Assembly: GCA_026004935.1 (NCBI GenBank)
Contig: BPKC01000001.1
Coordinates: 868,001 to 932,000, forward strand
DNA from: Rhodothalassiaceae bacterium
GTDB taxonomy: Bacteria; Pseudomonadota; Alphaproteobacteria; Sphingomonadales; Rhodothalassiaceae
DNA: 64,000 bases
Reading direction: 5' to 3'
The first letter of the stretch is position 1; each line of letters opens with the position of its first letter. The position numbers and the translations under genes are program-made. The notes beneath the pieces are model-generated. The model had not been told where the DNA came from and ran no database searches. It was given only the letters and a program-made list of their open reading frames with translations. This document shows positions 3,569 through 42,590 of this stretch, one piece after another.

Positions 3569-4387
3569 GCGCCGCACCGCCGCCCGGGCCTGATCGGGTA
3601 CGCCGACATCACGCTCGGCTGCGGCAGCCGCCCGGCGTTCCCGCCGGCTTGCCGCGGTGCCGATGGCGCCGGGTGCCGGAACCTTCGGCAAAGCGCAGCA
3701 ACCCCGCAGCGGGAGAATCGGCCGCCGCCGGTCTTGCGCCGCTTGCCGCTGCGCCGGTGCACTGCCGGCACCACAAAGCGATCCCGCACCATCGTTTAAC
3801 GCCATGGCCGGCCGACATAAGATCCTGAAAAGCCGTATATTTTAAGCTTCAACCAATTCTTCGTGATACGGCTGCGTGCCCGCGGGCGCCCGCTCGTGAA
3901 ATTTTCCCTTGGCAAAGCGGGGGCCGCGTGGAATATGGTGCGCCGCGCTCGTGCCCCGGCACGACGGAGGAGAGAGAAGGCGGCCGAGGCTCCGCCCTTG
4001 CCTGTCGGGCAGGTGATGCCGTAGAAGCCTTCCTCTCAACCGAGAGCGCACGGGCCATCGGCGGCACGTCGCGGGACCGGTCCTTCGGGATCGCCACTGC
4101 TGCCGGTCCATGGAAGAAGGAAAGGGGAGGCTGCTCCGGCAAGAGCGGGGCCTGCGGCGATGGCGGGCGGAGACCGCATCGGCGGGCGCGAACCCGTTCC
4201 GGACCGGATCCGGCAGGCGCAAGCAGTCCTGACGGTGCGGCGTTGACGGCCCCTTTCCGTTCCGGGATCGCACGTGCCGGTCATCGGCCCGGTCATGGAT
4301 CCGTCGTCTCGCCCGGCGGGGCGCGATGGCACGAACGGGCCCGGGAAGGGTCGACAAAGCATGAGGGAAGAGTCAGTGGGACGGACA
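3569..4387. other. Long gap / probable leader before the TonB operon
   Basis: No convincing gene was seen in these 819 bases. The open frames that cross it have no ribosome site and biased shadow-like composition. Around 3789-3875 lies an A+T-rich island, unusual in this window, holding a promoter-like sequence and an 8-bp inverted repeat, AGCCGTAT at 3831-3838 with ATACGGCT at 3866-3873. If the promoter is real, the TonB operon mRNA would carry an untranslated leader of about 500 bases. Confidence 0.5.
3812..3841 (+). promoter_or_regulatory. Candidate sigma-70 promoter for the TonB operon
   Basis: CCGACA at 3812-3817 and TATATT at 3836-3841 are separated by 18 bases in the only A+T-rich stretch of the gap. 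The -10 box fits well and the -35 box is moderate (four of six). It points toward the DUF3450 gene about 545 bases downstream. The distance is long, so a closer promoter may exist. Confidence 0.3.
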
Positions 4388-5218
4388 ATGCAGCGAACAC
4401 TCAAGACACTCGCCTGCACGGGCCTGATCGCTGCGACGGCATGGTCGTTCGCCGCGACCGTGCGCGCGCAGGAGGCCGAGCAGACGCCGCCGCCCGCGCC
4501 GCCTGTGATCGAGCCCGGTCCGAAGCTTGATCAGGTGTTCTCGGAGGCGCTTCAGGTGATCAAGACGGCGCAGGCCTCCCAGGAGCAGATCGACAAGATT
4601 GCCTCCGAGACCGACCGCCTGTTCCGCGAGTATTCGACGAAGCTCAAGGAGATCGAAAGCCTGCAGGCCTACAACGCCCAGCAGGAGCGGGTGATCCGCG
4701 ATCAGCAGGCCAAGATGGCGGAGATCCAGAAGTCCATCGACGGGGTCGTCGCGGTGCGCCGGGGCATCACGCCGCTCATGCTCGAGATGCTGGAGGGGCT
4801 CGAGAAATTCGTGGAGCTCGACGTTCCCTTCAAGATCGAGGATCGCAAGGCGCGCCTCGAGAGGCTCAAGGACTACATGGACGATTCGGACATCTCCGCG
4901 CCGGAGAAGTTCCGCCTCGTGCTCGAGGCCTATCAGACGGAGGTCGAGTACGGCCGCACGATCGAGGCCTATGAGGGCACGGTCAACATCGATGGCACCG
5001 ACCGCGTCGTGAACTTCCTGCGCATCGGTCGCGTGGTGCTCGCCTATCAGACGCCGGACGGCGAGGAGCAGGGCTTCTGGAACCCCCACACGCGTCAGTG
5101 GGAGCCGCTGCCCGACAGCTATTCGACGCAGATTCGTGACGCCCTGCGCTACGCCCAGAAGCAGGCGGCGCCCAATCTCTACATCCTTCCTGTGACGGGT
5201 CCGGAGCAAGCGAAATGA
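4388..5218 (+). CDS. DUF3450 periplasmic protein of a TonB2-type system
   Basis: A 276-residue exported protein with a Sec signal peptide (MQRTLKTLACTGLIAATAWS, cleavage near AQEAEQ). A long coiled-coil follows (about residues 40-115: repeated Glu/Gln/Lys heptads such as AQQERVIRDQQAKMAEIQ), then a compact C-terminal domain. The layout matches DUF3450, which in Vibrio TonB2 clusters precedes the TtpC-type ExbB. It overlaps the next gene by ATGA. An in-frame ATG at 4361 would add nine residues before the signal peptide; 4388 gives a more typical signal. It may help gate or assemble the motor complex at the inner-membrane periplasmic face, which is inferred from context. Confidence 0.82.
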   Translation: MQRTLKTLACTGLIAATAWSFAATVRAQEAEQTPPPAPPVIEPGPKLDQVFSEALQVIKTAQASQEQIDKIASETDRLFREYSTKLKEIESLQAYNAQQERVIRDQQAKMAEIQKSIDGVVAVRRGITPLMLEMLEGLEKFVELDVPFKIEDRKARLERLKDYMDDSDISAPEKFRLVLEAYQTEVEYGRTIEAYEGTVNIDGTDRVVNFLRIGRVVLAYQTPDGEEQGFWNPHTRQWEPLPDSYSTQIRDALRYAQKQAAPNLYILPVTGPEQAK

Positions 5219-6654
5219 CCATGAAGAAGACCATGATCTCACTCGGCCTGTTCGCGGCCGCCCTGATCGCGAGCCCGGCGCTCGCCCAGGAGTCGGGCGG
5301 ACAGGCGGACAGGCCCCAGACCGAGACCGCCAAGCCCGCGGATCTCGACGCGCTCTTGCAGCTCGTCGAGCAGGGGCAGCTCACGGAAAACAGGCTGCAC
5401 CGTCAGCGCGAGGCCGAGTTCAAGGCGCGGCGCGACCAGCAGGCCAGGCTGCTCAGGGAGGCCGAGGCCGAGCGGGACCGCGAGGCCGCGCGTGCGACCC
5501 AGCTCGAGCGCCAGATCCAGCAGAACGAGGAGCGCCTGCGCGATCTGCAGCGCACGCTGCAGGAGCGTCTGGGCGAGCTCAAGGAGATGTTCGGCGTGAT
5601 CCAGCAGGTTGCCGGCGATGTCCGCGGCCAGGTGGAAAGCTCGCTGATCTCCGTGGAGACGGGCCGCGATGCCCGCGTGCCGGCTCTGGACAATCTGATC
5701 CAGAAGGCGTCCAGCTCCTCCTCGCTGCCGTCGATCGACGAGATCCGCGTGCTGTGGACCGAGATGATGCGCGAGATGGTGAAATCGCGCGAGGTCGCGA
5801 AGTTCCCGCACACGGTGATCACGGCGGCCGGTGACAAGAAGACCGTGGATCTGGTGCGCGTCGGCAACTTCAATCTCGTCTCGGACGACCAGGGGGTCTA
5901 CTACAAGTACGACTCCGAAAACGACAAGGTCGTCGAGCTGCCGAAGCAGCCGTCCTCGCGATTCACGGCCACCGCCGCGGCGCTGGCGGAGGCCCAGCCG
6001 GGCGAGGTCGTCGGTTTCGGCATCGACCCGACCCGCGGTCAGCTGCTGTCGATGTTCGTGCAGGCTCCGTCGCTGCGCGAGCGCATCGACCAGGGTGGCG
6101 TCATCGGCTACGTCACGATCGCGCTCGGCATCTTCGGCGTGCTGCTTGCGATCTACAAGATGATCGCGCTCGCCATCGTGAACGCGAAGGTGCGCGCGCA
6201 GATGAAGGCCGAGACCGCGAGCGACGGCAATCCGCTCGGACGCGTGCTCAAGGTCTACGAGGAGAACCGCAACGTCGACGTCGAGACGCTGGAGCTCAAG
6301 CTTGACGAGGCGATTCTGCGCGAGACGCCGGCGCTCGAGCGCGGGCTCACCATGATCAAGCTGATCTCGGCGGTGGCACCTCTGCTCGGTCTGCTCGGCA
6401 CCGTGACCGGCATGATCGCGACCTTCCAGGCGATCACGCTGTTCGGCACCGGCGATCCGAAGCTGATGGCGAACGGCATCTCCCAGGCGCTGGTGACCAC
6501 CGTGATCGGTCTCGTGGTCGCCATCCCGACGCTGCTGCTGCACAGCTTCGTCTCGGGCATGGCGCAGCGGGTGATCCATGTTCTGGAAGAGCAGAGCGCG
6601 GGTCTCGTCGCGCTGCATGCGGAAAAGGAGCATGGCGGTGCAAGTGCTGCTTGA
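5215..6654 (+). CDS. TtpC-like MotA/TolQ/ExbB proton channel protein with large periplasmic domain
   Basis: A 479-residue protein: signal peptide at 1-24, a long coiled-coil region rich in Arg/Glu/Gln (about 30-130), a periplasmic domain to about residue 295, and then three membrane segments of the ExbB/TolQ channel fold (VIGYVTIALGIFGVLLAIYK; LISAVAPLLGLLGTVTGMIA; LVTTVIGLVVAIPTLLLHSF). The LGLLGTVTGMI motif is the proton-channel signature. The pairing of an extended coiled-coil ectodomain with an ExbB-like C-terminus is that of TtpC, the extra subunit of Vibrio TonB2 systems. The start codon overlaps the preceding stop, and the next exbB starts inside its 3' end. Confidence 0.9.
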   Translation: MTMKKTMISLGLFAAALIASPALAQESGGQADRPQTETAKPADLDALLQLVEQGQLTENRLHRQREAEFKARRDQQARLLREAEAERDREAARATQLERQIQQNEERLRDLQRTLQERLGELKEMFGVIQQVAGDVRGQVESSLISVETGRDARVPALDNLIQKASSSSSLPSIDEIRVLWTEMMREMVKSREVAKFPHTVITAAGDKKTVDLVRVGNFNLVSDDQGVYYKYDSENDKVVELPKQPSSRFTATAAALAEAQPGEVVGFGIDPTRGQLLSMFVQAPSLRERIDQGGVIGYVTIALGIFGVLLAIYKMIALAIVNAKVRAQMKAETASDGNPLGRVLKVYEENRNVDVETLELKLDEAILRETPALERGLTMIKLISAVAPLLGLLGTVTGMIATFQAITLFGTGDPKLMANGISQALVTTVIGLVVAIPTLLLHSFVSGMAQRVIHVLEEQSAGLVALHAEKEHGGASAA

Positions 6655-7165
6655 TGCCTACAACGCCATCCTGATCTTTCTCGAGAAGGGCGGTCCCGTC
6701 CTCTACGGGGTGATGATCGTCACCTTCTGGATGTGGATGCTGATCATCGAGCGGCTGTGGTACTTCTTCGCGGGTGCCAAGGCCGACATCCAGAAGGTTG
6801 TGGCGGCCTGGGAATCGCGGCCGGAGCGCCGGTCCTGGTACGCCCACAAGATCCGCCAGGCGATGATCGCTCAGGTGTCGGAGAACCTGAACGCCAATGT
6901 CGAGATGATCAAGACGCTGGTCGCCACTTGCCCGCTGGTCGGGCTGCTCGGCACGGTGACGGGCATGGTGACGGTCTTCGACGTGATGGCGGTGCTGGGC
7001 AGCGGCAACGCGCGCGCCATGGCCGACGGCGTCTCCAAGGCGACCATCCCGACGATGGCCGGCATGGTGGCGGCGCTGTCCGGCGTGTTCGTGAGCAGCT
7101 GGATCGAGCGGCGCGCGCGCCGGGAGACCGAGCGGCTCGCCGATTCGCTGACGATGGACCACTGA
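6632..7165 (+). CDS. exbB: ExbB/TolQ proton channel subunit
   Basis: A 177-residue inner-membrane protein with three membrane segments: one near the N-terminus (VLYGVMIVTFWMWMLIIERL), then CPLVGLLGTVTGMVTVFDVM, then ATIPTMAGMVAALSGVFVSS. It has the GLLGTVTGM channel motif. Being short, it resembles ExbB2 of TonB2 systems rather than the longer classical ExbB. The ATG at 6632 follows AAAAGGAG and lies within the last 23 bases of the upstream gene, so translation is probably coupled. With the ExbD proteins it would couple the proton gradient to TonB. Confidence 0.93.
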   Translation: MAVQVLLDAYNAILIFLEKGGPVLYGVMIVTFWMWMLIIERLWYFFAGAKADIQKVVAAWESRPERRSWYAHKIRQAMIAQVSENLNANVEMIKTLVATCPLVGLLGTVTGMVTVFDVMAVLGSGNARAMADGVSKATIPTMAGMVAALSGVFVSSWIERRARRETERLADSLTMDH

Positions 7166-7303
7166 TGCCGGCGGGGCCGGGCGCGACAGGCGTCCGGCCC
7201 CGGCCATCGGTGGCGGGGGCCGGCATCCGCGTAGTGCCCGCCGTCCAGGAAAAGCGGCGGTTCCGGGCGGCCCGGCCCGGCAGACAGATGGGTTGCGAGA
7301 TCG

Positions 7304-7711
7304 ATGCGCAAGTTCAGCAAACGCAAGGATGAAGCCGAGATCAACATGACGCCGATGCTCGACATCGTGTTCATCATGTTGATCTTCTTCATCGTCACCG
7401 CCTCCTTCACGAAGGAGATCGGACTCGAGATCAACAAGCCGCCGCCGTCCGAGGATCAGCCGAAGGACGACGAGAACAAGGCGCTGCTGATCCAGGTCGA
7501 CCGTGCGAACCGCATCTTCATCGATTTCCGGCTGGTCGACATCGGCTCCGTGCGGGCCAACATCGAGCGTTTCCATGCCGAGCATCCGAAGGGGCCGGTT
7601 GTCATCCAGGCCGCGCCCGACACCAAGGCGGGCATCGTGGTCAGCATCTACGACCAGGCCCGCCAGGCGGGCGTCTACAACGTCTCGATCGCGGAGCCGC
7701 GCGAGTACTGA
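7304..7711 (+). CDS. exbD: ExbD/TolR subunit, first of two tandem copies
   Basis: A 135-residue protein with a basic cytoplasmic N-terminus (MRKFSKRKDEAEIN), one membrane helix (TPMLDIVFIMLIFFIVTASF) carrying the conserved Asp needed for proton transfer, and a periplasmic TolR-like domain. It is separated from exbB by 138 bases, the largest gap in this operon before the second copy. A 66-nt stretch around the membrane helix (7336-7401) is identical to 7891-7956 in the second exbD, although the periplasmic domains differ. Confidence 0.94.
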   Translation: MRKFSKRKDEAEINMTPMLDIVFIMLIFFIVTASFTKEIGLEINKPPPSEDQPKDDENKALLIQVDRANRIFIDFRLVDIGSVRANIERFHAEHPKGPVVIQAAPDTKAGIVVSIYDQARQAGVYNVSIAEPREY

Positions 7712-7861
7712 TGAACGCCGGTCGGCGGACGCCGGCGGCGGATTGTCGGAAGCCGCACGGGCTCCTATATTGAGAACGGGGAGAGGCCAGCATCAGCGGG
7801 CGATGTCGATCCGGACCAGCGGTGCCAGGATTCGTCGGCGCGTGTGAGGGAAGATCGCGGA

Positions 7862-8260
7862 ATGCGTGAAAAGCAGCAGGAAGAGGAACTCGAGATCAAC
7901 ATGACGCCGATGCTCGACATCGTGTTCATCATGTTGATCTTCTTCATCGTCACCGCAACCTTCATGAAGGAGGCGGGGGTCACGGTGGAAAAGCCCGAGG
8001 CGCTCACGGGCGAACGGCAGGATCAGGCCAGCATCATCGTCGCGGTCACGGACAAGGACGAGGTCTGGGTCAACAAGCAGGTCGTCGACATCAAGGCGTT
8101 GCGGCCGCTGATCGAAAAGCTGCACGCGGAAAACCCCAAGGGCACCGTGGTGATCGAGGCGGACAGGGATGCGCGCGCCGGGCTCATGATCCAGGTGGCC
8201 GATGCCATCCAGGCCGCGGGTGTGGGCACGGTCGCGGTCTCGACCGAGGAGAGGCGGTAG
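7862..8260 (+). CDS. exbD: ExbD/TolR subunit, second tandem copy
   Basis: A 132-residue ExbD paralogue. After MREKQQEEELEIN comes the same membrane helix as the first copy, then a distinct periplasmic domain beginning KEAGVTVEKPEALTGERQDQ. The ATG at 7862 has GAGGGA about ten bases upstream; a GTG at 7844 is an alternative. It lies two bases before tonB. Two ExbD genes in one operon suggest a heteromeric ExbD pair in one motor, or two interchangeable subunits. This is inference. Confidence 0.94.
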   Translation: MREKQQEEELEINMTPMLDIVFIMLIFFIVTATFMKEAGVTVEKPEALTGERQDQASIIVAVTDKDEVWVNKQVVDIKALRPLIEKLHAENPKGTVVIEADRDARAGLMIQVADAIQAAGVGTVAVSTEERR

Positions 8261-8262
8261 TC

Positions 8263-8886
8263 ATGACCAGATATGTCCCGGCAGTGCTGATCGCGGCGGG
8301 CGTCACCGCGCTGCTGTTCTTCTTCATGCAGGCGCTGGTCGCCAATCCCGAGGTGAAGCTGTCAAACATCAAGCCCGTGGTGTTCACGGACGTGATCCAG
8401 GTCGAGAGGCCCGAGACCGTGCATCGCGAGACGCCGGAGGTGCAGAAGCCCGACATGCCCGAGGCGCCCCCGCCGGATCTCAACATCCCGAAGGCATCGG
8501 TCAGCGGCGCGCGGCAGTCCATCAGCTTCTCGCGGGTCAGCCTTGACGCAGGGATCGATATCGGCCGGGTCGACATAGGCGGTGCCACGGAAGGCGACTA
8601 TCTGCCCCTGGTCCGCATCCAGCCGGAGTACCCGCCCCGGGCGGCCGAGCGCGGGATCGAGGGCTATGTGATCGTGGAGCTGACGGTCACCCCCGACGGC
8701 ACCACGAAGGACATCAAGGTCATCGAGGCCGATCCGCCGGGCTATTTCGAGCGCGCGGCCATCCGGGCGGCGGAGAAGTTCCGCTACAAGCCGCGGGTGG
8801 TGAACGGCCAGCCCGTCGAGGTGCAGGGCGTGCGCTACATGTTCACGTTCCAGCTTGACGACAGCGATGGGCGGCGCCGGCGCTAG
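8263..8886 (+). CDS. tonB: TonB family energy transducer
   Basis: A 207-residue TonB: short cytoplasmic start, one signal-anchor helix (VLIAAGVTALLFFFMQALV), a Pro/Glu-rich periplasmic linker (about residues 45-80; PEVQKPDMPEAPPPDLNIPK), and a C-terminal TonB domain (YPPRAAERGIEGYVIVELTV, then FRYKPRVVNGQPVEVQGV). The linker is short, as in TonB2 proteins. It presumably energises one or more outer-membrane TonB-dependent receptors, none of which is encoded in this window. Confidence 0.94.
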   Translation: MTRYVPAVLIAAGVTALLFFFMQALVANPEVKLSNIKPVVFTDVIQVERPETVHRETPEVQKPDMPEAPPPDLNIPKASVSGARQSISFSRVSLDAGIDIGRVDIGGATEGDYLPLVRIQPEYPPRAAERGIEGYVIVELTVTPDGTTKDIKVIEADPPGYFERAAIRAAEKFRYKPRVVNGQPVEVQGVRYMFTFQLDDSDGRRRR

Positions 8887-8999
8887 CGTGCGGCATTCGA
8901 CAGTTCCGGCCCCAATGAAGGAAAGCCCGCGCCCGGCCGGCCCCAGATCATGACGGCGTCATGCGGCGGTGCGCCGCGGTGCGGGAGGAGGAGCACGAA

Positions 9000-10394
9000 A
9001 TGACATCTATGGGATGGGCAGGACGGGCGGTCACCGGTCTTGCGGCGGGCGCGCTGATGCTGTGTGCGGCCCCCGCGCTGCAGCCCGCCGGAAAAGCCGC
9101 GGGCGGCGCATCCGCACTGGTCGTCGAGCTTTTCGCCGGGGCGGCGCTTGCGCAAAGCGATCAAGCCAAGCCGGCGCGCAAGACGAAGCGGGTCGACGCC
9201 ATCCGGCAGCAGTACATGTCGGAGTTCGACAAGATCAACAAGCTGCTGGATGAGAAGAAGAATGCGGAAGCTCTGGCCCGGCTCAAGGAGCTCGCGCAGG
9301 AGAAGCTGAACGATTACGAGAAGGCGATCGTCTATCAGTTCATCGGTCAGCTGCTGGCGCAGGATGGCAAGTACAAGGAGGCGATCCCCTATTTCGAGGA
9401 GATCCCGACGCTCGAGCGCGCGCCGGACGCCCAGATCGACACCGCGCTGAACATCCTCTCCCAGCTCTATCTGGCGACTGACGAGTACAAGAAGGCCATC
9501 GAGACCAAGCAGAAGTGGATGGCGCGACAGGAGGTGCTGTCGCCCAGCGACTACATATTCCTGGCCCAGGCCTATTACGGCCTCGAGGACTACAAGAACG
9601 TCGCGAAATATGCGGAACAGGGCATCAAGATGGCGCGCGAGACGGGCAGACCCGTCGAGGAGCGCTGGTGGCTGCTGCTGCGCGCGGCGTACTGGGAGCT
9701 GAAGGATTTCCAGAACGTCAAGCGCGTCATGGAAATCCTCGCCCTCAACTACGACAAGCCCGAATACTGGCGCAATCTGGCGGGCGTCTATGGCGAGCTC
9801 GGGATGGACGACAAGGCGCTGGCCGTCATGGAGATCGCCTATCGCCGCGGATTCCTCGATGAACGCGAGCGGTATCTCATCAATCTCGCGCAGATGTACA
9901 TCGCCCGCGGCGCCCCCATCAAGGCCGCCTGGCTGATCGAGCGCGGGATGAAGGAAGGAAAGATCGAGAAGACGGCCGACAACTACGAGCTTCTCGGCCA
10001 AGCCTATCTCAACGCGATGGAGATGGACAAGGCCGAGCGGCCGCTCCGGCTGGCGGCCCAGATGAAGAACAAGGGCGAGCTGTGGATGCGCCTCGGCCAG
10101 GTCCTCGTCCAGCGCGAGAAATGGAACGAGGCGATCGAGGCGCTGCAGAAGGCGATCGATGCCGGCGACCTCGACAAGCCGCAGTACGCCTATCTGCTGC
10201 TGGGCACCGCCTATTTCAACATCGACGAATTCGACAAGGCGAAGGAGGCCTTCCGCGCGGTGCTCAAGATGAAGGACGAGGATGCGCAGCAGAGCGCCCG
10301 CAAATGGCTCGGCTACATCGACAGCGAGCTGAAGCGTCGCCGCCAGCTCACCGAATTCTACGACAAGAGCGGCAAGCGCCGGAAGCGCAGCTGA
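9000..10394 (+). CDS. Exported TPR-repeat protein of the TonB operon
   Basis: A 464-residue periplasmic or lipid-anchored-like protein: a hydrophobic N-terminus (about 1-50, with a cysteine in ALMLCAAPAL) and then repeated TPR helices across the rest (for example DYEKAIVYQFIGQLLAQDGK, EYKKAIETKQ, WNEAIEALQKAIDAG, EFDKAKEAFRAVLKMKDEDA). A strong GGGAGGAGGA ribosome site precedes the ATG at 9000, so the upstream in-frame ATG at 8961 is less likely. A TPR gene follows tonB2 in Vibrio TonB2 clusters too, supporting a scaffold role in the same complex. A clear terminator hairpin follows. Confidence 0.88.
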   Translation: MTSMGWAGRAVTGLAAGALMLCAAPALQPAGKAAGGASALVVELFAGAALAQSDQAKPARKTKRVDAIRQQYMSEFDKINKLLDEKKNAEALARLKELAQEKLNDYEKAIVYQFIGQLLAQDGKYKEAIPYFEEIPTLERAPDAQIDTALNILSQLYLATDEYKKAIETKQKWMARQEVLSPSDYIFLAQAYYGLEDYKNVAKYAEQGIKMARETGRPVEERWWLLLRAAYWELKDFQNVKRVMEILALNYDKPEYWRNLAGVYGELGMDDKALAVMEIAYRRGFLDERERYLINLAQMYIARGAPIKAAWLIERGMKEGKIEKTADNYELLGQAYLNAMEMDKAERPLRLAAQMKNKGELWMRLGQVLVQREKWNEAIEALQKAIDAGDLDKPQYAYLLLGTAYFNIDEFDKAKEAFRAVLKMKDEDAQQSARKWLGYIDSELKRRRQLTEFYDKSGKRRKRS

Positions 10395-10422
10395 GCGCGC
10401 CTCAAGGACATTCCTGACGACG

Positions 10423-10448
10423 GGCCCCGGGAGGCATCTCCCGGGGCC
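10423..10448 (+). terminator. Strong hairpin terminator after the TonB operon
   Basis: A perfect 11-bp stem, GGCCCCGGGAG paired with CTCCCGGGGCC, closes a GCAT tetraloop 29 bases after the TPR gene stop. The downstream run is only weakly T-rich (TTCCCGTT), so termination may be intrinsic but imperfect. It separates the TonB operon from the amidohydrolase. Confidence 0.7.
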
Positions 10449-10565
10449 TTCCCGTTGCCGGCCGCCCCCTTGCGATCGGCCTTCGAAGGTGGTCTTCTGC
10501 GCACGGATGACGCCCTGACGGCCGGACCCTCCCGGCCTGGCGGCTTTGCGGAAAGGAGGTCTGCG

Positions 10566-11909
10566 ATGACGGCGGCGACGAGAGCGGCGGCGGTGGCGCT
10601 CGCCGCAGCGATGGCGGTGGCGCAGGTTGCGGGGGCGGCGCGGGCGCAGGCTCCTCATGCAGAGATCGGCGAAGACTACGCCCATCTTGAGCAGCTCTAC
10701 CGTCACCTCCACAGCCATCCCGAGCTCAGCTACCAGGAGGCCGAAACCGCGAAGCGCATCGCCGCCGAGCTCAGGGCGCTGGGCTTTGCCGTCACCGAAG
10801 GTGTCGGCGGCCATGGCGTCGTCGCGATCATGGAAAACGGCGACGGGCCGACGGTGATGCTGCGCACCGATCTCGATGCCCTGCCGGTGGCGGAGCAGAC
10901 GGGCCTGCCCTATGCGTCGCGCGTGAAGGCGGTGGAGCAGACGGGCCAGGAGGTCCCGGTGATGCACGCCTGCGGGCATGACGTGCACATGACGGTGCTC
11001 GTCGGCACCGCCCGCTGGCTGGCGGCGCACCGCGACCGCTGGTCCGGCCGGCTGATGCTGATCGGGCAACCGGCGGAGGAGCGCGGAGCGGGCGCGCGCA
11101 AGATGCTGGAGGACGGCCTGTTCACGCGCTTTCCCAAGCCGGACTATGCGCTCGCCCTGCATGTGAACGCGGCGCTGCCCGCGGGCACGGTGGCCTATGT
11201 GCCGGGATACGCGCTCGCCAACGTCGACTCGGTCGACATCACCGTGCACGGCATCGGCGGCCATGGCGCCTATCCGCAGGCGACGAAGGATCCGATCGTG
11301 CTGGCTTCCGAAATCGTGCTGGCGCTGCAGACCATCGCCAGCCGCGAGATCGACCCGCAGGATCCCGTGGTGGTCACGGTGGGATCCATCCACGGCGGCG
11401 CCAAGCACAACATCATTCCGGACCGCGTGGATCTGCAGCTGACCGTGCGCAGCTACTCCGACGAGACCCGGCACAAGGTGCTGGAGGCGATCCGGCGCAT
11501 CGCCGTCAACATGGGCCGGGTCGCGGGCCTGCCCGACGATCTGCTTCCCGAGGTGAAGATCCACGAGGAGGAATACACCCCGGCCACCTACAACGACCCG
11601 GAGCTTACCGAGCGGCTGGCCGCGGCGCTCGCGGCGCGCTTCGGCTCCGAACGCGTGATCCGCGCGAAGCCGGTGATGGGCGGCGAGGATTTTTCGCGCT
11701 ACGGCAGGGCGGGGGTGAAGGCGGTGATGCTGTGGCTGGGTGCGGTCGACCCCGACAAGTGGAGACTCGCCCAGGAGGGCAAGCTTTCCCTGCCGTCGCT
11801 GCACTCGCCCTTCTTCGCCCCGCTGCCGCGGCCCACGATCACGACGGGGGTGGAGACGATGGTAACCTCGGTGCTCGCTCTGATGGGCAGGAGAGACGGC
11901 GCGGGCTGA
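10566..11909 (+). CDS. Exported M20-family amidohydrolase (peptidase/deacylase)
   Basis: A 447-residue zinc hydrolase of the M20 amidohydrolase group (hippurate, IAA-amino acid and N-acyl amino acid hydrolases). A signal peptide (about 1-27, AAAMAVAQVAGAARAQA) sends it to the periplasm. Metal-site motifs are visible: LRTDLDALPV, HACGHDVHM, GQPAEERGAGA and the late VMGGEDFSRYG. An optimal GAAAGGAGGT site precedes the ATG at 10566. Substrate cannot be read from sequence. Its position just after a TonB system could mean that it processes an imported amide or peptide conjugate, which is inference. Confidence 0.87.
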   Translation: MTAATRAAAVALAAAMAVAQVAGAARAQAPHAEIGEDYAHLEQLYRHLHSHPELSYQEAETAKRIAAELRALGFAVTEGVGGHGVVAIMENGDGPTVMLRTDLDALPVAEQTGLPYASRVKAVEQTGQEVPVMHACGHDVHMTVLVGTARWLAAHRDRWSGRLMLIGQPAEERGAGARKMLEDGLFTRFPKPDYALALHVNAALPAGTVAYVPGYALANVDSVDITVHGIGGHGAYPQATKDPIVLASEIVLALQTIASREIDPQDPVVVTVGSIHGGAKHNIIPDRVDLQLTVRSYSDETRHKVLEAIRRIAVNMGRVAGLPDDLLPEVKIHEEEYTPATYNDPELTERLAAALAARFGSERVIRAKPVMGGEDFSRYGRAGVKAVMLWLGAVDPDKWRLAQEGKLSLPSLHSPFFAPLPRPTITTGVETMVTSVLALMGRRDGAG

Positions 11910-41725: not shown

Positions 41726-41888
41726 CCGGCGCGCCATTCCTTCGCGGCCCCTCCGGGACCGGCGACCATCCGGCACCCGTCCATCGACCCCCGATCGCGC
41801 ATCCCGCACGAGGGGGCGGGCGGCATCTCCGACTTGCCCCTTCCTGTCGCCGGCCGGCTCTCCGGGCTTCGCCACCGGCCGGCTCTCT

Positions 41889-42590
41889 CTTCGTCACCCG
41901 ACGGCACTTCTCTCTTCGTCACCCGACGGCACTTCTCTCTTCGTCACCCGCCGGCGTGACCGGCGGGTCCAGCCGCCGGGGACACCGGCACCGGCGCCCG
42001 TGCCGTCGACATGCCACATGGGTTCGCCGGTCAAGCCGGCGAACGACGATTCAGTCATCAGTCGTCAGTCATCTGTGATCAGGGACCGGCATGGCGGGCG
42101 TCACCCGCCGTTGCCCACGCTCCGCATCGTCACCCGCCGGCGTCATTTTTCCTCACCCGCCTCCTCTCTACATTCGTCACCCGCAGGCTCGACCGGCGGG
42201 TCCACCGCGCAGCGGAGACGGCCGCAAGCGCTGGGTCCGTCCTCCGTGGCGGCTGGATTCGCCGCTTTCGCGGCGAATGACGAAAGAAGAGAACGTCACC
42301 CGCCGGCTTGACCGGCGGGTCCACCGCGCAGCGGAGACGGCCGCAAGCGCTGGGTCCGTCCTCCGTGGCGGCTGGATTCGCCGCTTTCGCGGCGAATGAC
42401 GAAAGAAGAGAACGTCACCCGCAGGCTCGACCGGCGGGTCCAGCGAACGGCGGAGCCGACTACAGGCGTGGGAGCTGTTGTCACCGCCGGCCGGGTTCGC
42501 CGCTTTCGCGGCGAATGACGAGGAGAACGAGAGTCACCCGCCGTTACGCACACTCCAGATCGTCACCCGCCGGCTCGACCGGCGGGTCCA
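41889..42590. repeat. Palindromic element cluster 2, with 119-bp tandem duplication
   Basis: The 975-base gap between convergent msrA and the zinc-protein gene is mostly repeats. A 25-bp unit (CTTCGTCACCCGACGGCACT plus TCTCT) is tandem at 41889-41913 and 41914-41938 and runs into the first palindrome. Composite doublets lie at 41942-42048 (A with B) and at 42175-42282, 42294-42401 and 42413-42520 (A with C). A lone A is at 42561-42590. Units 42175-42293 and 42294-42412 are tandem copies, both 119 bp, nearly identical. All are in the opposite orientation to clusters 3-5. Bases 41726-41888 hold nothing supported. Confidence 0.88.

Follow-up and report, generated by a model that had tools for sequence, protein, structure and literature searches.

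Codon conservation in a membrane helix, rather than recent gene conversion, probably accounts for 66 nucleotides shared by two tandem exbD genes

On one strand of the window (the whole stretch of DNA analysed, 64,000 nucleotides) the gene order is DUF3450 protein, long ExbB, short ExbB, ExbD-A, ExbD-B, TonB and TPR protein.

4364..5218, + strand: TtpB-like DUF3450 protein (PF11932, E 3e-85)
5215..6654, + strand: TtpC-like long ExbB, with a DUF3450-like N-terminus and a MotA/TolQ/ExbB domain (PF01618, weak PF11932)
6632..7165, + strand: short ExbB, ExbB2-like (PF01618)
7304..7711, + strand: exbD-A, 135 aa (PF02472, E 7e-30), in the lineage A clade
7862..8260, + strand: exbD-B, 132 aa (PF02472, E 2.8e-29), 62-70% identity to same-family orthologues
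8263..8886, + strand: TonB-like protein (PF03544 and TIGR01352)
8961..10394, + strand: TtpD-like TPR protein (TPR models), whose real start may be the ATG at 9000

The frames of the long, ttpC-like exbB and the short exbB overlap by 23 nt (window 6632-6654), and for exbD-B the ATG at 7862 is a better fit than the GTG at 7844 of the open reading frame list. Both ExbD proteins match the whole PF02472 domain, with scores of 104.2 and 102.2 bits against a Pfam cut-off of 25.4, both have the single transmembrane helix with a conserved Asp that marks an ExbD, and the PMLD motif of both aligns with PFID of the solved ExbD 7ajq and 6tyi, Asp matching Asp. Judged by its six-component content (TtpB, TtpC, ExbB, ExbD, TonB, TtpD), the operon can be classed as TonB2/Ttp-type. 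Its part list (DUF3450 protein, TtpC-type ExbB, short ExbB, ExbD, TonB, TPR protein) is that of the Vibrio TonB2 system, TtpB2-TtpC2-ExbB2-ExbD2-TonB2-TtpD2 (PMC6957404); a requirement for siderophore-iron uptake belongs to the definition of that type. A difference is that the present operon has two tandem ExbD genes. Other proteobacteria, for example Xanthomonas with exbD1/exbD2, reportedly also carry several exbD genes in a TonB operon (PMC3551730).

The feature under study is a stretch common to the two exbD genes.

7336..7401, + strand: tract copy 1, in exbD-A, an exact match to 7891-7956, encoding the cytoplasmic edge and the transmembrane helix with the conserved Asp (GAC, 7361-7363)
7891..7956, + strand: tract copy 2, in exbD-B, an exact match to copy 1 (Asp GAC, 7916-7918)

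The identity is exact over 66 nt at an offset of 555, and the match breaks at these coordinates in both directions. In both genes the tract translates as EINMTPMLDIVFIMLIFFIVT, followed by the two bases GC of the next Ala codon. The sequence-only reading, which had reported 66 identical nucleotides that include third codon positions and an unusual TTG, was exact on this point: all of the 18 degenerate codons agree between the copies, among them TTG, which accounts for about 2% of Leu codons in the region (17/763). It was borne out, too, in placing divergence immediately outside, where ungapped comparison of exbD-A with exbD-B gives differences that are nearly all non-synonymous. A genome-wide search with the first 30 nt of the tract, at up to 3 mismatches, matched at the two exbD sites only. 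Nearly all genomes have two antisense reading frames without a stop across the tract; this is a consequence of the sense codons, and an overlapping reading frame was rejected as a candidate.

How surprising the identity is depends on the expectation chosen. Third-position GC of the source genome is 0.89, and its own codon usage already predicts agreement at 11.8 of the 18 codons; if each copy took its codons independently, at the frequencies used by the window's genes, all 18 would agree with P = 2.4e-4. Under a position-specific model, which combines the codon preferences of relatives with a per-genome GC tilt, 18 of 19 codons are identical here where 14.6 are expected (p = 0.027). The tract identity exceeds chance, but only mildly so once order-wide codon conservation is allowed for.

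The tandem pair itself recurs in several families among the 60 relatives surveyed. In a tree built without the tract (104 columns), every genome that has the pair, with one exception, places its A copy in a single clade with support 0.98, a clade that also takes in a few third exbD copies. Phylogenetically, then, the exbD duplication is ancient, with A and B as old paralogue lineages, and since the tract-free tree groups the A copies, the identity is no leftover of a recent duplication. The helix sequence is near-invariant in A, B and single ExbD proteins alike, across Alpha- and Gammaproteobacteria, Myxococcota and an Arcobacter. Further copies occur here and there: several genomes of one family, f5 (L125, L131, L137, L147 and L148), encode a third ExbD-like protein, in which this helix motif recurs, some 3-4 kb downstream of the pair, and genome L129 (G012) has three exbD in tandem.

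A tract that is identical while its surroundings differ had been read either as the mark of gene conversion or of constraint on the DNA or RNA itself. Conversion should leave the paralogues of one genome closer to each other than to paralogues of close relatives, and in congeners this is not seen. In congeneric pairs of similar third-position GC, the tracts of A and B differ at synonymous sites by a mean of 0.271 when both come from one genome and 0.284 when they come from two, effectively no difference, which counts against conversion as a general cause. At the level of the family a small difference appears in the tract (0.329 within, 0.377 across); the values outside are 0.571 and 0.588. Nor does each species have its own identical pair, as the conversion reading anticipated, only 3 of about 30 A/B pairs having at least 63 nt in common. 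On the other side, the idea that the tract might simply diverge at the synonymous rate of the rest of the gene does not hold: between genus-level orthologues the synonymous difference in the tract is 0.312 for A and 0.209 for B, against 0.469 and 0.509 outside. Slow change of the tract between orthologues, and not just between paralogues, matches the prediction from constraint, and it is this half of the original alternative that, statistically, stands.

Pertinent to what may be left for conversion are the summed counts of identical codons within genomes. Under the position-specific model the tract has 395 where 351 are expected; with a second model the tract has 392 where 327 are expected, and the remainder of the gene 457 where 486 are expected. 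As to the rare codon, at Leu15 the source genome is the only one of its family with TTG in copy A, the others having CTG; in copy B, TTG is found in 3 of 7 family genomes, the source genome included. Copy A of the source genome differs from copy B of a genome of another genus (L009/L119) at just 1 of 18 codons. As the main source of the tract identity, recent conversion is not supported. Episodic conversion may have occurred in some lineages, and the strongest individual candidate is a Kordiimonas assembly (L125, G027), with p = 0.002 uncorrected over 31 pairs. There, 53 nt are identical between 9846-9911 and 10327-10392, with the AT-ending codons GTA, ATT, TTG, ATT and GTT.

The constraint can be located more closely. 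In both paralogues, seventeen codons (3-19, the N to I of EINMTPMLDIVFIMLIFFI) show more synonymous conservation than the codon usage of the genomes would give. Order-wide, CTC8 is observed 46/78 times against 11 expected, CCG6 65 against 27, GTG11 59 against 25 and GAC9 66 against 35, codon usage having been derived from genes called by a simple scheme of our own. The mean information gain inside the block is 0.46 bits for A and 0.55 for B, compared with -0.07 and -0.05 for conserved residues outside, with p of about 1e-6 each, a significance that is overstated in so far as codon z-scores take related genomes as independent; the better argument is the drop of over-conservation to none at Val20, Ala22 and Val25, the block ending at Val20. 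Compared with 17-codon windows from 26 genes of ribosomal operons, it falls in the top 1.5-4%, which is unusual but not unique. The ExbB1 core also has a codon-conserved patch, around codons 391-407.

Several more ordinary sources of such a pattern were considered. Codon usage typical of high expression was rejected, as usage in ribosomal proteins (15 genomes) leaves CTC8 (24 against 4.5 expected), CCG6 (27 against 14) and GTG11 (22 against 9.9) unexplained; the block is conserved beyond genome codon usage, and part of it beyond high-expression usage and dipeptide context too. Dipeptide context accounts for Thr5 (ACG/ACA before Pro) and for little of Leu8 or the others. Genomes with a single exbD have 78 consensus codons where 31.5 are expected, even at a genome GC3 of 0.28-0.42, and since they keep the same codons, paralogy is not the cause; GC-biased conversion is ruled out on the same ground. 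In a broad, mostly gammaproteobacterial set the pattern is weaker and partly different (Thr5, Ile13, Phe17, Ile19).

Within the tract the RNA could fold on itself.

7337..7386, + strand: potential RNA hairpin, lower stem 7337-7349/7374-7386, upper stem 7351-7357/7363-7370, loop CUCGA, -23.5 kcal/mol; the same at +555 in copy 2

In the source genome its stability has a z of about -3 relative to synonymous sequences of equal third-position GC, and TTG betters the stem. Across relatives 87% of stem cells are paired, and the fourfold sites of Pro6, Val11 and Leu15 favour the pairing base (z 8.1 for 6p1-11p3, 6.7 for 6p3-10p3 and 4.8 for 2p3-15p3). Covariation for this hairpin in the relatives is no greater than in shuffled alignments (0.147 versus 0.148). 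Tested against a GC-matched null, tract stability (mean z -0.76, versus -0.2 to -0.7 elsewhere in exbD) is no greater than that of other operon windows, and against a column-shuffled null the difference for the tract, -1.2, is background-like beside an operon mean of -0.73 (sd 0.62). Third positions at Leu8 (in the loop), Phe17, Phe18 and Ile19 are conserved yet unpaired, the Glu1-Ile16 pair is disfavoured, and the upper stem is not kept in Gammaproteobacteria. No Rfam match was found in window 4000-11000. As a selected feature the hairpin was set aside, being striking in the source genome but without covariation and of background stability in relatives.

A better lead for RNA structure is the upstream exbB2. 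In a covariation-sensitive folding scan of the seven operon genes (406 windows; mean difference -0.73, sd 0.62) the top windows are exbB2 codons 9-38 (-4.0) and 57-82 (-3.2), and exbB2 codons 5-34 lead in the broad set as well; the covariation score of the proposed exbB2 stems is above at least 496 of 500 shuffles and above every slid control. The candidate coding hairpin at codons 9-38 (window 6656-6745) has its stem in the ME[KQR]GGDVLF region (L116-L155 orthologues), where in many genomes a K/R-codon first base A is found together with CTT, and C (Q/R) with CTG. Native sequences there fold some 4 kcal/mol better than column-shuffled ones, covariation is 0.219 versus 0.196 shuffled (4/500), and the source-genome copy pairs less well than most. 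For codons 55-84 (window 6794-6883) there are two alternative candidate hairpins, clade-dependent, a WEARxERTSW stem and a KSW..AMIS stem (L116-L155 orthologues), with covariation of 0.133 versus 0.074 and 0.126 versus 0.095 shuffled (0/500 each); this region stands out in the order and not in the broad set. Much further downstream, window 41884-42413 holds exact direct repeats of at least 40 nt (e.g. 42191 with 42310, and 41884 with 41909).

The probable explanation of the tract identity is that helix protein and helix codons are both held near-constant in the two paralogues throughout a bacterial order. Some of the counts above tell against it, namely the excess of within-genome identity over independent-codon models in the tract and not outside, and the small within-family excess in the tract. 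These same counts, with what by modelling looks like an order-wide match excess confined to the tract, are what a recent or ongoing conversion between the tandem genes, trimmed by selection to the helix, has in its favour, together with the match at all 18 degenerate codons and the Leu15 pattern, which looks as if A had received TTG from B; besides L125, three other genomes have low p values (L117 0.004, L139 0.007, L136 0.009, again uncorrected over 31 pairs). However, that TTG is the one synonymous site that separates conversion from a single C-to-T change in the source genome, the identity stops exactly at the end of protein conservation, orthologues in another genus are almost as similar, and congeners are without the within/cross difference, so that conversion as the maker of the identity here is rated improbable. 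The codon bias of a GC-rich genome acting on an invariant protein, with nothing more, would provide much of the expected agreement, but is largely refuted by the low P for all 18 codons and by the persistence of the same codons in low-GC genomes (L154, GC3 0.28; L150, 0.35), and only slight credence is left for it. An assembly artefact can practically be dismissed, as the 2.9 Mb genome is estimated to be 100% complete in 2 contigs, the copies differ in their flanks and a tandem pair is present in most relatives.

A different type of alternative has selection acting on the nucleic acid as such. In one version a hairpin of RNA (or DNA), lying close to where each exbD segment of the mRNA begins, would tune translation or mRNA stability, for example; on its side are the 13-bp lower and 7-bp upper stems with their favourable energy, and the preference of Pro6, Val11 and Leu15 for pairing bases. 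Shuffled-level covariation, stability like that of other operon windows and conservation at unpaired third positions weigh against it, and it is considered unlikely. Also rather unlikely is the more general proposition that a further signal, at the level of the nucleotides, is written into the 17-codon block (an RNA hairpin, a binding site, or a position-specific tRNA or pausing programme) and has persisted in both paralogues for as long as the alphaproteobacterial order has existed, independently of conversion and of general codon usage. Translational selection makes no prediction for CTC at Leu8 versus CTG/TTG at Leu15, or for GTG11 versus no preference at Val20. A nucleotide signal stays a live alternative for the four- and six-fold sites Pro6, Leu8, Val11 and Leu15, at which codon choice is position-dependent and follows no simple optimal-codon rule, with translation of the critical helix favoured as the larger part of the constraint.

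Under the explanation by constraint on protein and codons, A and B would supply a TonB2/Ttp-type energy transducer with its two ExbD subunits, the tract encoding the pore helix with its proton-carrying Asp. The amino acids of the helix would be fixed because both helices must work in an ExbB-type pore, to judge from the E. coli ExbB-ExbD motor, a 5:2 complex in which two ExbD helices lie inside one ExbB pentamer pore with their Asp residues toward the ring (PMC6778125). Some 17 helix codons would be under synonymous purifying selection in both paralogues and in single-copy genomes, each gene independently keeping nearly the same DNA word. The high third-position GC would leave little room to differ, and the present pair would just happen to match everywhere, the shared TTG included. 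Selection would presumably act for the most part on translation, on how accurately or how fast the critical codons of the helix are read; the alternative is a signal in the nucleotides themselves. A parallel exists in mammalian ion-channel genes, where channel and transmembrane regions have optimal codons and higher synonymous conservation (PMC3485311); in exbD the codons of channel-forming transmembrane residues are likewise better conserved than those elsewhere, but unlike with a simple optimal-codon rule the tract prefers one Leu codon at position 8 and others at 15, and a Val codon at 11 with none at 20.

Two diverged tandem paralogues can share identical DNA without gene conversion, as a fixed protein with position-specific codon conservation can bring this about. 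In its codon block, this helix of a bacterial proton channel offers a compact case of synonymous selection that can be put to the test. With regard to the motor, the helix with one essential Asp is in common with E. coli ExbD, but the E. coli motor has two copies of one ExbD, while here there are two different ExbD with an identical helix. It is plausible that their periplasmic domains specialise, and by analogy with the E. coli complex the two could form a mixed pair in one pore. Paired ExbD genes whose products have the helix in common and differ in the periplasmic domain are suggestive of just such a mixed ExbD pair in one motor.
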